A stretch of DNA of 34,551 nt from Prevotella sp. GTDB lineage: Bacteria; Bacteroidota; Bacteroidia; Bacteroidales; Bacteroidaceae. How positions within the stretch are numbered: the stretch's first letter is position 1; each line of letters opens with the position of its first letter. This document shows positions 26,444 through 31,529 of this stretch, one piece after another. A program made the position numbers and the translations under genes. The notes under the pieces are model-generated. The model made no database searches, was not told the DNA's origin, and saw only the letters and a program-made list of their open reading frames with translations. The stretch is from contig JAFPEE010000228.1 of assembly GCA_017389705.1 (NCBI GenBank), positions 1-34,551 of the forward strand, given 5' to 3'.

Positions 26444-27412
26444 ATGAAAAAGATTAGCAAAAGGTCACTGATTTTGTTTTATATGCTGTCGTTGATGTTC
26501 TGCCATGCGATGGCACAGGATCCGGTGAAGAAGTGGGGACAGCTGCAGGTGAAAGGCTCTCAGCTGTGCGACCAGCAGGGACGTCCCGTCATTCTACGTG
26601 GCGTGAGCCTGGGCTGGCACAACCTGTGGCCGCGCTTCTACAACAAGAAAGTGGTGCAGACGCTGAAGCAGGACTGGAACTGTTCTGTGGTTCGCGCTGC
26701 CATGGGCATCATGATAGAAGACAACTACCTGGAGAATCCTGACTATGCCATGAAGTGCATGACACCTGTCATTGAGTCGGCCATCAAGCAGAACGTCTAC
26801 GTCATCATAGACTGGCACTCGCACAACATGAAGCCCCAGGAAGCTAAGGAATTCTTTGCGCGCATGGCCAAGAAGTATGGCAAGTATCCGCACGTCATCT
26901 ACGAGATTTTCAACGAGCCGGTAGAGGATACGTGGGCTGACCTGAAGAAGTATGCTGCCGAGGTGATTGGCGAGATACGCAAGTACGACCCAGACAATGT
27001 GGTGCTGGTGGGTTGTCCCCACTGGGACCAGGACATCCATCTGGTGGCCGAGAGTCCGTTGCAGGGTTTTGACAACGTGATGTATACCGTCCACTTCTAT
27101 GCTGCCACACATGGAGACTACCTGCGTCAGCGTACCGAGGAGGCTGTCAAGAAGGGAATTCCCGTCTTCATCTCCGAGAGTGGAGCCACAGAGGCTTCCG
27201 GCGACGGAAAGATTGACCCCGAGAGTGAGGAGGAGTGGATAAAGATGTGTGAGCGCCTGGGCATCAGCTGGATATGCTGGAGCATCTCTGACAAGAATGA
27301 GAGCTGCTCGATGTTGCTGCCCCGTGCTACTGCTACAGGTCCTTGGGCTGACGATGTCATCAAGGAATACGGTAAGTTAGTGAAAGGCCTACTGAAGAAA
27401 TACAACAAATGA
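26444..27412 (+). CDS. GH5 endo-beta-1,4-glucanase (cellulase)
   Basis: A 322-residue secreted GH5 enzyme, closest in layout to subfamily 2 endoglucanases: signal peptide to AMAQ (about 25), KWGQLQVKGSQLCDQQGRPV then LRGVSLGWH at the barrel start, YVIIDWHSHN, acid/base Glu158 in YEIFNEP, active-site His217 in YTVHFYA, nucleophile Glu245 in VFISESGA, and WICWSISDKNES late in the barrel. No carbohydrate-binding module is attached. Its stop overlaps the sigma-factor start (ATGA), so the two are translationally coupled. Confidence 0.93.
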   Translation: MKKISKRSLILFYMLSLMFCHAMAQDPVKKWGQLQVKGSQLCDQQGRPVILRGVSLGWHNLWPRFYNKKVVQTLKQDWNCSVVRAAMGIMIEDNYLENPDYAMKCMTPVIESAIKQNVYVIIDWHSHNMKPQEAKEFFARMAKKYGKYPHVIYEIFNEPVEDTWADLKKYAAEVIGEIRKYDPDNVVLVGCPHWDQDIHLVAESPLQGFDNVMYTVHFYAATHGDYLRQRTEEAVKKGIPVFISESGATEASGDGKIDPESEEEWIKMCERLGISWICWSISDKNESCSMLLPRATATGPWADDVIKEYGKLVKGLLKKYNK

Positions 27413-27966
27413 TGCAACGCGACGAACTGATAACGAAGAATATGGGCTATGTAGTGACGCTGGCGCGTCAGTACAAGAGTGACATACTGAGCACTGACGA
27501 CTTAGTCAACGAGGGTGTGATAGGCCTGGTGAAGGCTGCCGAGAAGTACGATGCCTCGCGAGGCAAACCCTTCGTTACCTATGCCGCCCCTTATATCCGC
27601 AAGAGCATAGAGACTGCCATCAGCCGTCTGGAAACGTCAACGAATGTGCGCTCTACGGATGAGTCGCTGCCCGTCGGAAGCCGTAACAACTACACGCTGC
27701 TTAACGTCTTGGAGGACAAGAGCGCAGAGAAGGCTGACATAGTGGTGGAGGAGAATACACTCTCTGAGGATCTGCTCCGCTATCGTGATACGCTGAATGA
27801 GCGCGAGCAGCGAGTGATCAATCTCTATTACGGTATCGGATATGAGCGCCAGACCATGGCAGAGATAGGCGAGGTGTTGGGCCTGAAACGTGAAAGGGTA
27901 CGGCAGATTCGCAATACAGCGTTACGCAAGCTCCATAAGGCTGCCAGAAAGGAGACCGAGGCATGA
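27409..27966 (+). CDS. Short sigma-70 family RNA polymerase sigma factor
   Basis: A 185-residue sigma factor made of region 2 (about 8-70: DDLVNEGVIGLVKAAEKYD, FVTYAAPYIRKSIETAI), a short region 3 and region 4 (about 127-178: LNEREQRVINLYYGIGYE, IGEVLGLKRERVRQIRNTAL). Region 4.2 closely resembles primary sigma factors and not ECF factors, but region 1 is absent and the protein is much shorter than the housekeeping Bacteroidetes sigma (about 287 residues). Either ATG 27409 or 27412 may start it. It overlaps the GH5 stop and the next gene's start by four bases, giving a coupled trio. No anti-sigma gene is adjacent. Confidence 0.88.
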   Translation: MMQRDELITKNMGYVVTLARQYKSDILSTDDLVNEGVIGLVKAAEKYDASRGKPFVTYAAPYIRKSIETAISRLETSTNVRSTDESLPVGSRNNYTLLNVLEDKSAEKADIVVEENTLSEDLLRYRDTLNEREQRVINLYYGIGYERQTMAEIGEVLGLKRERVRQIRNTALRKLHKAARKETEA

Positions 27967-28790
27967 GGCTTAAGCTGCTTCTGTTCTTCAGTCTTCTTGC
28001 CTTCCTGCCGTTACAGGCCAAGCTCATCAAGGTGCTGGCCATAGGCAACAGCTTCTCGGAAGATGCAGTAGAGCATTATCTCTACCAGCTGGCAAAGGCA
28101 CAAGGCGACTCGCTGGTCATAGGCAATGCCTACATACCAGCCTGCACTATCAGCATGCACATGTCTTTCCTTAACGCATCAGTCAATAAATATGCCTACC
28201 GCAAGATTGTCGGTGGCGAGAGGACTGAGGAGAAGAGAGTGAACCTGCAACGCATCATCCTGGACGAGCCGTGGGATATCATCACCCTGCAACAGGGCAG
28301 TCTCTGCTCAGGACTCCCCGAGACCTACAAGGACCTGCCTACCTTTAAGCGTGCTGTGAAGCTGCTGGCAACCAACCCCAATGTGCAGATATGGTGGCAC
28401 ATGACGTGGTCTTATTCCAAGAGCTTCAAGAGTGACAAGTTTGAAGTCTACGGCAACGACCAGCGTAAGATGTATACAGGCATCGTCAATAGTGTGCGTA
28501 ACGAGGTTCCCAAGGCCCATATCACCCGTATCATACCCTCAGGCGTTGCTATCAGACTGATGCGTCTGAACAGAGGCGATGTCCTCAATCGCGACGGACA
28601 GCACCTCTCTTTTACCTTAGGTCGGTATACTGTGGCCTGTACCTGGTGCGAGATGCTGACAGGGAGGAATGTTGACGGCAACAGGTATTATCCGGAAAAT
28701 ATGAAAGCAGAGGATGTACGTCTGTGCCAGCAAGAAGCTCACGAGGCAGTCTTCATGCAGCAGCTGAGCCAATACGATGTGTTGTTATAG
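27963..28790 (+). CDS. DUF4886 family protein (SGNH-hydrolase-like), exported
   Basis: A 275-residue exported protein with a signal peptide (MRLKLLLFFSLLAFLPLQAK) followed at once by VLAIGNSFSEDA (GNS at 28-30), the serine block of SGNH-type hydrolases, PWDIITLQQGS as a second block, and LNRDGQHLSFTLGRY (Asp211, His214) as the late Asp-x-x-His block. This matches the DUF4886 pattern; an esterase or deacetylase acting on carbohydrates or cell surface polymers is a reasonable guess. The gene overlaps the sigma factor stop by four bases (ATGA) and is 18 bases ahead of the ABC importer, so they may share a transcript. Confidence 0.85.
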   Translation: MRLKLLLFFSLLAFLPLQAKLIKVLAIGNSFSEDAVEHYLYQLAKAQGDSLVIGNAYIPACTISMHMSFLNASVNKYAYRKIVGGERTEEKRVNLQRIILDEPWDIITLQQGSLCSGLPETYKDLPTFKRAVKLLATNPNVQIWWHMTWSYSKSFKSDKFEVYGNDQRKMYTGIVNSVRNEVPKAHITRIIPSGVAIRLMRLNRGDVLNRDGQHLSFTLGRYTVACTWCEMLTGRNVDGNRYYPENMKAEDVRLCQQEAHEAVFMQQLSQYDVLL

Positions 28791-28808: not shown

Positions 28809-31529
28809 ATGATAAACAGTATAATAGAAAGTTTTTTCAATAACCTGATAGCCGAGGATCGCTACAAGATGATTCTCGACGGTTTGCAGGTGACGTTGCT
28901 CATAACACTCTGTGCCGCTCTGCTGGGAACGCTGCTTGGTGGACTGGTGTGCTGGATGCGCATGAGCCGTCGCAAGTGGCTGCAGCATGTGGCCAAGGTG
29001 TATATTGAGCTGATGCGCGGCACGCCCGTGCTGGTGTTGCTCATGCTGATGTACTACGTGGTGATGGCACCGCTGGATGCTACGGGCATCATAGTGGCCA
29101 TCGTCACCTTCGCCATGAACACGGCGGCCTACATCAGCGAGATGCTGCGCACTACCATTCAGGGCATAGACCGCGGGCAGACGGAGGCCGGACTGGCCTT
29201 AGGTTTCACTCAGCGACAGACGTTCTTTAAGATTGTGCTGCCACAGGTGGTCAAGGCGGTGATGCCTGTCTATCAGGGCGAGGTGGTGAGTCTGCTAAAG
29301 GGCACGAGCATCGTGGGCTACATTGCCGTGGCCGACATGACGCGAGCCTCCGACTTGATACGCTCGCGCACGTTCGACGCCTTCTTCCCCCTCATCGTGA
29401 CAGCCATCATCTACTTCATCATGGCGTGGCTCATCGGACTGCTGCTGCAGAGTCTCGTTCAGCGCAAGCGTGTGAAAGCCATCACCGCGGCTGTGGTGCT
29501 GGCATTGTTTGGCATGATGGGTTACGTGTCGGAGCTCTGTTCTCACCAGCCAATGGCCAACGGCCAACAGCCAACGGCCAACTTGAACGTTCCTCCTGCC
29601 TTCCAGGCACTTAACGGCATGAATGTGGCTGTGATTATCGGCAGCATACAGGACATTGCCGTCACCGATATGGCTCCCGATGCCAACATCCTGCGCATGA
29701 CCAGTCAGACCGACCTGCTGGCAGCCTTAGAGAACGGCAAGGTAGACGCTGCAGGTGGTGAAAGCCTGACGCTGATGTTCAACAAGGAGCTGCTTGAAAA
29801 GGTGGATTCTGTGGGTGCAGGACTTACGCCAATTCCCATAGGAGCCTGTTTCCGACTTGACAATACCGAATTGCAGCAGGACTTCAACAGCTTTCTGGCC
29901 GAAATCCGCAGTGACGGCACCTACCAGAAGATTCTGGATCGCTGGAGCAATGCCGCTGACCCCTCGGCTCTGGACATTCCCCAGCAACGCGGCACGGGAC
30001 GCATCCTGCGTGTGGCCACCTATCCGGCTATGCCTCCGTTCAATTTCATTAATTTCGGAAAACCATCAGGTCTGGAACCGGAACTGCTGACGGAATGGGC
30101 CAATCGACGTAACTGGCAGTTGGAGCTCCTCATCATGGACTTCGCCGCACAGATACCTGCTGTGCAGACGGGCAAGGCCGACATGGCTCTAGGGGCTATC
30201 AGCATCACCGAAGAGCGACAGAAGCAGGTGCTGTTCTCCGACGGCTATATCGATTCGCATATCGTGCTGATGACCCGAAAGGGCGAGGCCGACATACTTA
30301 CTAATCCCGTGCAGCTGAAGGCTTCGGAGAATGAGGAAATTCAATGGCTGTGGGCCGTGACTCTCCTGATGATCATCATAGGCGGTGGCGCATGGCTTAT
30401 CCTTCGTCGTCGCAAACACAGTATTGCAATACATACCACTTCCCTCTCTAGCAGGGAGGGGCAGGGGGAGTGTCTTCTTCATATCTCCCACCTCAAGAAA
30501 AGCTATGGCAGTCTCGATGTATTGCGCGACATCAATACTGAAGTACATCGCGGCGAGGTCATCTCCATCATCGGACCTTCAGGCACGGGCAAGAGTACTT
30601 TCCTGCGTTGTCTGAACCTGTTGGAGCAGCCCACCGGCGGCAGCATCATCGTCGATGGGGAGAATATCCTTGCTAAGGGCTATCCCGTCAACAGGCTGCG
30701 CCAGAAGATGGGCATGGTGTTCCAGAGTTTTAATCTCTTCGAACATAAGACCGTGCTGGAGAATGTCATCTTCGCCCCCTGCCAACTGCGCCATGAGTCT
30801 GAAGAGACGGCATGCGAGGAGGGACTGGCACTGTTGCGCAAGGTAGGACTGGCTGAGAAGGCCGACGTCTATCCGTCGAGCCTCTCCGGTGGTCAGAAAC
30901 AGCGTGTAGCCATCGCCCGTGCCCTGGCTATGAAGCCCGACGTCATCCTCTTCGACGAGCCGACGTCGGCTCTCGACCCCACGATGGTGGGCGAGGTGCT
31001 CAGCGTCATCCGCCAGTTGACCAAGGAGGGCATGACCATGCTGATTGTCACCCACGAGATGAAGTTTGCCCACGACGTCTCGACTCGTCTCTTCTTCATG
31101 TACGATGGCTATATCCACGAGGACGGCTCGCCAGAGCAGATCTTCGAGAATCCTGTCCATAGCGCCACTAAGGCCTTCATCCAGCGCATCCGCAAGGAGG
31201 TGTTCGAAATCGAGGGCCCCGACTTCGACTTCCTGGGCATGCACTCTACCATGGGTGCCTTCTGCCACAAGTACGGCATCGCCGAGAAGCAGGAAACAGC
31301 AGATCGGCTGACAGACAAGATGCTCGACGGTGCGATGGCCCCCTACCGCCCCATCACCGTGCGCATCACCCACAGCGAACTGTCGGGCATCACCGCTCTC
31401 GACTTCATGGTGGAGAAGATGACCGCCACGCCACTGAGCGACGCACAGCGTACAGAGTTCTCTAATGAATGTCGTCAGGTGATAGAGGAACCCACTAAAC
31501 GAGGCTTCCGTGTGAAACTGATCATATGA
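28809..31529 (+). CDS. Single-chain amino-acid-type ABC importer with circularly permuted binding protein
   Basis: A 906-residue fusion. Residues 1-220: HisM/GlnP-type permease with EAA loop (EAGLALGF, 126-133). A membrane helix (about 224-242) follows RKRVK. Residues 264-382 match lobe 2 and the C-terminal helix of GlnH-like binding proteins (ALNGMNVAVIIGS to SDGTYQKILDRWSN); residues 397-492 match the N-terminal lobe (ILRVATYPAMPPFNF, ISITEERQKQVLFSDGYI). So the binding protein is in permuted order. A helix (512-533) ending RRRK leads to the ATPase: Walker A GPSGTGKS (589-596), LSGGQ (692-696), VILFDE (712-717), His749. Residues 796-906 form an unassigned domain. By analogy with GlnH, Arg470 and Glu318 would hold the amino-acid carboxylate and amino groups. 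A homodimer would be a complete importer. Confidence 0.9.
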   Translation: MINSIIESFFNNLIAEDRYKMILDGLQVTLLITLCAALLGTLLGGLVCWMRMSRRKWLQHVAKVYIELMRGTPVLVLLMLMYYVVMAPLDATGIIVAIVTFAMNTAAYISEMLRTTIQGIDRGQTEAGLALGFTQRQTFFKIVLPQVVKAVMPVYQGEVVSLLKGTSIVGYIAVADMTRASDLIRSRTFDAFFPLIVTAIIYFIMAWLIGLLLQSLVQRKRVKAITAAVVLALFGMMGYVSELCSHQPMANGQQPTANLNVPPAFQALNGMNVAVIIGSIQDIAVTDMAPDANILRMTSQTDLLAALENGKVDAAGGESLTLMFNKELLEKVDSVGAGLTPIPIGACFRLDNTELQQDFNSFLAEIRSDGTYQKILDRWSNAADPSALDIPQQRGTGRILRVATYPAMPPFNFINFGKPSGLEPELLTEWANRRNWQLELLIMDFAAQIPAVQTGKADMALGAISITEERQKQVLFSDGYIDSHIVLMTRKGEADILTNPVQLKASENEEIQWLWAVTLLMIIIGGGAWLILRRRKHSIAIHTTSLSSREGQGECLLHISHLKKSYGSLDVLRDINTEVHRGEVISIIGPSGTGKSTFLRCLNLLEQPTGGSIIVDGENILAKGYPVNRLRQKMGMVFQSFNLFEHKTVLENVIFAPCQLRHESEETACEEGLALLRKVGLAEKADVYPSSLSGGQKQRVAIARALAMKPDVILFDEPTSALDPTMVGEVLSVIRQLTKEGMTMLIVTHEMKFAHDVSTRLFFMYDGYIHEDGSPEQIFENPVHSATKAFIQRIRKEVFEIEGPDFDFLGMHSTMGAFCHKYGIAEKQETADRLTDKMLDGAMAPYRPITVRITHSELSGITALDFMVEKMTATPLSDAQRTEFSNECRQVIEEPTKRGFRVKLII
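29550..29582. repeat. 7-bp tandem repeat in the importer linker
   Basis: Four and two-thirds copies of CCAACGG-like units (CCAATGG, CCAACGG, CCAACAG, CCAACGG, CCAAC). The total, 33 bases, keeps the frame and encodes the start of the periplasmic linker (about residues 248-258). Confidence 0.8.
30437..30472. repeat. GC-rich REP-like palindrome in the importer linker
   Basis: CACTTCCC (30437-30444) and GGGGGAGTG (30464-30472) flank a second inverted pair (CCCTC..GAGGG). At 36 bases it is in frame and encodes TTSLSSREGQGE between the second tether helix and the ATPase. Confidence 0.6.

Follow-up and report, generated by a model that had tools for sequence, protein, structure and literature searches.

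A predicted one-gene amino-acid importer from Prevotella sp. with a circularly permuted binding domain between permease and ATPase

A single gene in a 34,551-nucleotide stretch of Prevotella sp. DNA (contig JAFPEE010000228.1, the whole of which is called the window here) very probably encodes a self-contained homodimeric Type I amino-acid importer with a circularly permuted, tethered binding domain. An earlier note on this DNA had proposed one polypeptide with a permease, a permuted and doubly tethered binding protein and an ATPase, and this proposal fits the domain assignments, the swapped matches to known structures, the topology signals and the homologues presented below. The host is a rumen-type bacterium with a seemingly complete nutrient importer in one gene, the function of which is probably ordinary and the build unusual.

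The open reading frame at 28809-31529 of the forward strand, on which all parts of the gene described below lie, is intact and comprises 906 codons (906 aa) with no internal stop. Its domains follow the order permease, helix, lobe 2, lobe 1, helix, ATPase and C-terminal extension, and the residue ranges given in the earlier note proved correct within a few residues. The permease domain, of the polar-amino-acid type, spans residues 1-226 (28809..29486) and matches PF00528 (BPD_transp_1) at residues 40-220 (2e-21, 77 bits versus a cut-off of 26.4). By hydropathy, an extra transmembrane helix (residues 225-243, 29481..29537) leads out to the binding domain. The outside linker that follows (residues 244-263, 29538..29597) is fast-evolving by dN/dS and contains a direct repeat of 18 nt at 29544-29582, the two copies of which are 89% identical; a 14-mer from this repeat has a single occurrence in the source assembly. 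In Pfam searches the binding region matched SBP_bac_3 split over two stretches (4.5e-32). Structure-sequence matches delimit lobe 2 plus the native C-terminal part (residues 264-385, 29598..29963), with E318 at the position of GlnH D157, and lobe 1, the native N-terminal half (residues 397-495, 29997..30293), with R470 at the position of GlnH R75. Between them lies the join from native C-terminus to native N-terminus, assigned by landmark spacing (residues 386-396, 29964..29996). A second outside linker, assigned by dN/dS (residues 496-513, 30294..30347), precedes the second extra transmembrane helix (residues 514-532, 30348..30404; hydropathy), which runs back to the cytoplasm. The GlnQ-like ATPase occupies residues 556-796 (30474..31196); PF00005 (ABC_tran) matches at residues 572-720 (4e-35), and the best NCBIfam model is GlnQ, with 298 bits, under the model's cut-off of 379. 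The linker ahead of the ATPase is G-rich at 30453-30470; one further site in the source assembly matches it with 2 mismatches, so that no repeat family is evident. With a BPD_transp_1 permease and a GlnQ-like ATPase, the gene resembles polar-amino-acid Type I ABC importers in both components and departs from them in the lobe order of the family 3 binding protein, both lobes of which are there in swapped order.

The C-terminal extension (residues 797-906, 31197..31526) belongs to no recognised family and was delimited by comparison with other ATPase ORFs: every closed one in the list, fused or separate, continues past the ATPase for 83-127 residues. It may be a regulatory domain. An extension profile gave 2 PDB matches up to an E-value of 10 (the best, NrdI, at 0.36), and a Pfam scan of 21 members gave six families, each in one member, with a best E-value of 0.068; a degenerate GHKL-type ATPase fold found no support in these searches.

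The swapped lobe order is evident from matches to solved structures. Used as a query, the region 29559-30400 matched 88 distinct PDB sequences at E ≤0.001. In AncQR (PDB 4zv1), residues 10-109 aligned with query residues 145-246 and residues 112-231 with query residues 15-130 (i-E-values of 8e-14 and 1.4e-8). As these halves are contiguous natively but swapped in the importer, this indicates a circular permutation that opened the chain where lobe 1 crosses over to lobe 2. Profile A1, built from 18 permuted relatives, matched 483 PDB sequences. Among the 60 of these listed, a best stretch running from lobe 2 into lobe 1 was seen only in 6h30 (GlnPQ SBD1-SBD2) and 4q0c (BvgS). The 6h30 alignment shows native domains in tandem, so that its match crosses the border between SBD1 and SBD2, and 4q0c presumably consists of native domains in tandem, too. 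No solved structure of the permuted kind was found among the 60 of 483 matches listed. Likewise, no name of the MglB-like (Type I fold) kind appeared among the 60 of 88 matches listed for the importer query or the 60 of 483 for the profile; the listed matches were GlnH, HisJ, LAO and their kin plus BvgS, MltF and dehydratase relatives, all of which we take to be Type II folds. At the level of sequence, the binding region is thus confirmed as a circularly permuted two-lobed binding protein, and its two halves would be expected to fold into one two-lobed domain.

Hydropathy averaged over an alignment of 45 proteins revealed seven helix-like stretches ahead of the ATPase, among them 225-243 and 514-532, which flank the binding region. 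A weak eighth stretch (730-748) sits within the ATPase and was discarded as a membrane helix. The net charge (K+R minus D+E), taken over 12 flanking residues, goes from +3.2 to -1.3 across helix 225-243 and from -0.4 to +3.7 across helix 514-532. The charge pattern at both helices places the binding domain outside and the ATPase inside, in agreement, over 45 proteins, with the orientation put forward previously. A lipobox-like motif ahead of the permease in 16 of 53 closed permease-unit-ATPase ORFs is in keeping with an N-terminus on the outside; the motif is a rough home-made pattern applied to stop-to-stop frames, and the importer ORF itself is not claimed to carry one. The second tether and the fused ATPase are not universal, because in two relatives (L094 and L095) the protein ends no more than 5 residues past lobe 1; no ATPase ORF was found in the stretches examined around these two loci.

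Homologues of the same domain order, for which a search had been suggested in the earlier note, are plentiful. Short peptide patterns, which reach close relatives only, were scanned against 84,980 species genomes and yielded 59 loci recorded as Prevotella, Xylanibacter, Prevotellaceae, Bacteroidaceae, Bacteroidales and Bacteroidia, plus one uncultured bacterium; records titled Xylanibacter ruminicola D31d and X. ruminicola Ga6B6 as well as Prevotella sp. tf2-5 are included, and part of the ORFs are cut by contig ends. Both lobes lie within one ORF at 58 of the 59 loci, with lobe 2 ahead of lobe 1 in 58 of 58; at the sole exception, L097, the frame is interrupted between the lobes. Both lobes are under purifying selection comparable with that on permease and ATPase. 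Median dN/dS values between the importer and 44 relatives are 0.115 for the permease, 0.167 for lobe 2, 0.084 for lobe 1 and 0.105 for the ATPase; the two linker-helix stretches have medians of 0.616 and 0.514, defined in just 35 and 33 of the 44 pairs. In a genus sample, residues 1-544 found matches at 1e-20 in 34 of 200 genomes, 15 of which, including the source genome, had a single match over at least residues 4-535. In a family sample, 15 of 201 genomes matched, again with the source genome included.

Within a few kb of the importer, none of its six neighbour genes recurred at any of the 59 loci, the importer itself being found at all 59 as positive control, and the largest flanking gene cluster occurred at 11 of 56 loci. 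The data over these few kb thus give no conserved neighbourhood from which the substrate might be guessed, and as there is no common neighbour gene, none is at hand within this range to supply a missing importer part. Just upstream of the importer and in the same direction, at 27409-28790, lie two genes, one for a short sigma-70-like factor with regions 2 and 4 and one for a protein of the DUF4886 kind, neither of which was found within a few kb of the importer in the 59 relatives. Native-order family 3 binding-protein ORFs lie near the importer at two loci (L041:5913-6815 and L053:1960-2829) and are close in the tree to the native-order SBP_bac_3 ORF of the source genome (L172), which is on another contig. 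These proteins are possible partners of the importer, or their position is due to chance.

The permuted domain is not confined to the importer and characterises a family in Bacteroidales and Chlorobiaceae. Even samples of 295, 295 and 395 genomes were searched at the level of order, class and phylum, with limits of 1e-15 for order and phylum and a stricter 1e-25 for class. Profile A1 matched 23 of 295 genomes in the order sample (18 over both lobes, 5 over one lobe only) and 55 of 395 in the phylum sample (43 over both lobes, 12 partially), the source genome being among the matches in both; in the class sample, at 1e-25, the source genome itself was the one match in 295. A single family (code f136) accounts for 38 of the 43 both-lobe phylum genomes. 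It is taken as Chlorobiaceae because the Fenna-Matthews-Olson protein (PF02327), presumably a marker of green sulfur bacteria, was present in 5 of 5 of its genomes tested versus 0 of 8 others. Units occur stand-alone, as one to three copies before a permease, or as one to two copies between permease and ATPase. Among distinct closed ORFs, central layouts comprise permease-unit-ATPase (53), permease-unit (2) and permease-two units-ATPase (1), and N-terminal layouts comprise unit-permease (19), two units-permease (12), three units-permease (3) and unit-permease-ATPase (4). Stand-alone permuted units make up 23 closed ORFs, mostly of about 265 aa and many in Chlorobiaceae, and the native-order closed ORFs collected number 21 without a permease and 8 fused to one. 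This tally leaves out 4 closed one-lobe ORFs and 40 cut by the locus end, and as loci were chosen by best match its counts are not frequencies. At five loci of the family taken as Chlorobiaceae (L136, L151, L154, L164 and L165), ORFs with three permuted units before one permease adjoin stand-alone permuted units. Beyond the phylum, two plasmid protein searches matched 352 and 1717 records, 15 and 10 of which were listed. From the first, 8 of the 15 listed matches cover more than 90% in two pieces and 7 are single pieces covering 37-74%; from the second, all 10 are in two pieces. Permuted order was not seen in the three plasmid stretches inspected, which are no survey of phyla: lobe 1 precedes lobe 2 in all three, and two of them (Shinella and Microvirga), although matched in a single piece across the lobe border, still have native order.

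Tandem arrays raise the question of which lobe pair is the unit. All 169 permuted units have a landmark spacing of 22-28 residues between lobe 2 and the lobe 1 that follows; in the central units it is 23 residues in 63 of 66 and 24-25 in the other 3. From lobe 1 to the next lobe 2 in tandem arrays it is 27-47 residues (30 junctions). Native lobe 1-lobe 2 spacing is 23-25 in 8 of 8 permease fusions; among 17 non-fusion proteins it is 22-26 in 11, 28 in one and 35 in five. The spacing lends support, short of proof, to lobe 2-lobe 1 as the unit over a native lobe 1-lobe 2 pair hidden in the tandems, with 6 of the 25 native values falling within the tandem range and related sequences sharing their lengths. 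The stand-alone single units are the stronger argument for the permuted pair.

Three other readings of the importer were weighed against these data. We give hardly any credence to the idea that the binding region consists of two unrelated degraded fragments or stems from a frameshift or assembly join. The source assembly is fragmented (265 contigs, 85.8% complete) and the L097 frame is broken, but the same order recurs in many other assemblies, those of X. ruminicola and Prevotella sp. tf2-5 included. The earlier note had itself named degraded fragments or a frameshift as grounds for refutation, and the intact ORF, the 58 concordant loci and the low dN/dS of both lobes, which retain their binding residues, oppose both; constant lobe order together with purifying selection makes artefact or decay very unlikely. 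Decidedly unlikely, too, is a domain swap in which the lobes pair across the homodimer, each lobe 2 with the lobe 1 of the partner chain, giving two native-like sites between the chains, so that the single chain itself would not be a permuted domain. Type I importers are dimers, and intra- and inter-chain pairing would leave the same trace in the sequence, but stand-alone lobe 2-lobe 1 ORFs exist, and the lobe 2-lobe 1 join is near-constant in length when the tandem lobe 1-lobe 2 links are longer and variable.

The attachment of both helices at the hinge would also suit a sensor or transport-coupled receptor, in which closure pulls the helices and signals to the ATPase, much as lobe closure acts in glutamate-receptor channels, and transport is secondary. 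The attachment points do resemble those of five receptor-channel-like ORFs of the same phylum. However, the gene retains both a permease and an ATPase, on each of which purifying selection acts, the fast-evolving linkers oppose a finely tuned mechanical link and Pfam detected no signalling domain, and we regard this reading as quite unlikely. A related proposal, that a single old permutation founded a separate Type II class in which tethering at both ends couples lobe closure mechanically to permease and ATPase, is rather unlikely as well.

The importer reading agrees with the binding residues. Arg occupies the GlnH R75 position in 66 of 66 central units, and at the D157 position Glu (59 units) predominates over Asp (4), Asn (2) and Leu (1). 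In GlnH these two residues bind the carboxylate and the amino group of the amino acid, respectively. An amino acid or a close relative is thus the likely ligand. The importer has Tyr at the position of GlnH D10 and Met at that of F13, so the ligand is probably not bound the way GlnH binds glutamine. In N-terminal units, Arg is kept at the R75 position (45 of 47 first and 27 of 27 later units) and Asp occurs at the D157 position in just 26 of 47 first and 14 of 27 later units; this loss makes amino-acid binding less sure across the wider family. In the proposed mechanism, one polypeptide would form each half-transporter and two chains a homodimer, every chain contributing a permease half, an ATPase on the inner side of the membrane and, on the outer side, a permuted Type II (cluster F) domain with a helix as anchor at either end. 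The lobes would close on the amino acid by means of the conserved carboxylate-binding Arg and the acidic residue that occupies the amino-group position. The domain, once closed, would dock on the dimeric permease, and the amino acid would be driven inward as ATP is bound and hydrolysed. Since the domain begins and ends at the crossover between its lobes instead of at the native termini, the tethers would grip the hinge side and leave both lobes free to move.

For phylogeny, 169 distinct permuted units were thinned to 58 (<62% identity) and combined with 31 native units. The tree of these 89 units holds the native proteins on one branch (support 84) together with one permuted row, the distant stand-alone unit L115. 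Two native rows on very long branches were left out of the clade test, which set the 58 permuted units against 29 of the 31 native ones. With the permuted units constrained to stay together, the tree improved on the free one by 5.16 log units (p-AU 0.649). This is no proof of a clade; as the held-together tree outscored the free search, one permutation event is not rejected, fits best and would be the simplest reading. The first units of tandem arrays partly cluster across Chlorobiaceae and Bacteroidales (L105, L106 and L102 with L129, L131, L136 and L151), in a group that also takes in two second and two third units, and the first units of L100 and L107 fall elsewhere. From this mixed grouping the arrays look old, exchanged or reshuffled. 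The earlier note had traced the permutation to a tandem duplication with loss of the outer halves. Such an origin may hold for the permuted family but would not have taken place in the importer gene, the units being compatible with one older origin; if right, the duplication would predate the permease-unit-ATPase layout, since the permuted family is wider. The lipobox-like motifs hint at an ancestor of the form lipoprotein unit-permease. Going by L094 and L095, the fused ATPase may be a later addition; these two could instead be decayed versions. By score, the ATPase plus extension (30474-31526) falls into two types, with 41 and 22 of 63 proteins, four of the 22 being simply divergent. Well-supported branches in the tree of the remaining protein force at least two changes of type, which suggests that the ATPase module was repeatedly exchanged. 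The type disagrees with that tree at L010, L053, L055, L075 and L159.

Among known systems, GlnPQ of Lactococcus lactis resembles the importer in that its binding domains, of cluster F, are joined to a permease of the polar-amino-acid type, GlnP, and its SBD1-SBD2 border gave the best match of the permuted profile among the PDB matches listed. Its binding domains precede the permease, each in native lobe order according to the 6h30 alignment, and its GlnQ ATPase is a separate subunit, a layout that the importer does not have. According to PMC8025302, GlnP and GlnQ together make up a homodimeric transporter. The importer has its binding domain after the permease on an anchor helix, as in OpuA, which is a likeness of layout only and not homology. 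OpuA is a glycine betaine importer with native lobe order, one tether and a separate ATPase. In the L. lactis protein, a hydrophobic anchor helix and an 11-residue linker tie the binding domain to the permease (PMC11065425).

Among the matches listed in a literature search that covered few subscription journals was neither a permuted family 3 (Type II) binding protein nor one placed between permease and ATPase. The earlier note, too, knew of no permuted binding protein in that place; the gene is not unique, however, and belongs to a wider family. The one precedent for a natural permuted ABC binding protein among the literature matches listed is TpMglB-2 (Tp0684) of Treponema pallidum, designated 'Type Ic / cluster Bc', which PMC4990184 describes as a natural circular permutation that still binds ligand. 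It and the importer both have a circularly permuted two-lobed binding protein, in our case as judged from sequence. TpMglB-2 differs in having a glucose-binding fold of Type I, in which the first three strands of the N-lobe now stand at the C-terminus, and in being a lipoprotein with its own separate permease and ATPase; the PDB matches listed for the importer do not point to such an MglB-like fold.

The permuted units thus offer a natural family in which an amino-acid binding protein has its chain ends relocated to the hinge and tethered there, and which can be compared across layouts: stand-alone, N-terminal, tandem and central. The effect of tether position on ligand binding, docking and transport, studied in GlnPQ and OpuA, becomes directly testable, and a one-gene importer would be convenient for structural work. 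GluR0-type bacterial ionotropic glutamate receptors, too, have GlnH-like lobes joined to the membrane at the lobe 1-lobe 2 crossover, but in native order, with a potassium-channel-like stretch between the lobes and without permease or ATPase. A PF00497 search found five receptor-like ORFs (L180-L183 and L187), of which four belong to the presumed Chlorobiaceae and one to a different family of that phylum. Their lobe order is native, with about 110 residues, a TVGYGD motif among them, between lobe 1 and lobe 2. No TVGYG-like pore stretch separates the lobes of the importer, where lobe 1 leads to the helix and the ATPase. The five ORFs have landmark-to-helix spacings of 30-31 and helix-to-landmark spacings of 21-23; in central permuted units these are 21-41 in 59 of 62 measured (58, 264 and 292 in the others) and 13-38 in 64 of 64. 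Bacterial glutamate receptors descend from binding proteins and potassium channels, as stated in PMC3483616. The parallel is one of layout, not descent, and the importer may represent a second evolutionary route to hinge attachment as in glutamate receptors; were the mechanical coupling true, an attachment geometry much like that of glutamate-receptor channels would yet be driving a pump.
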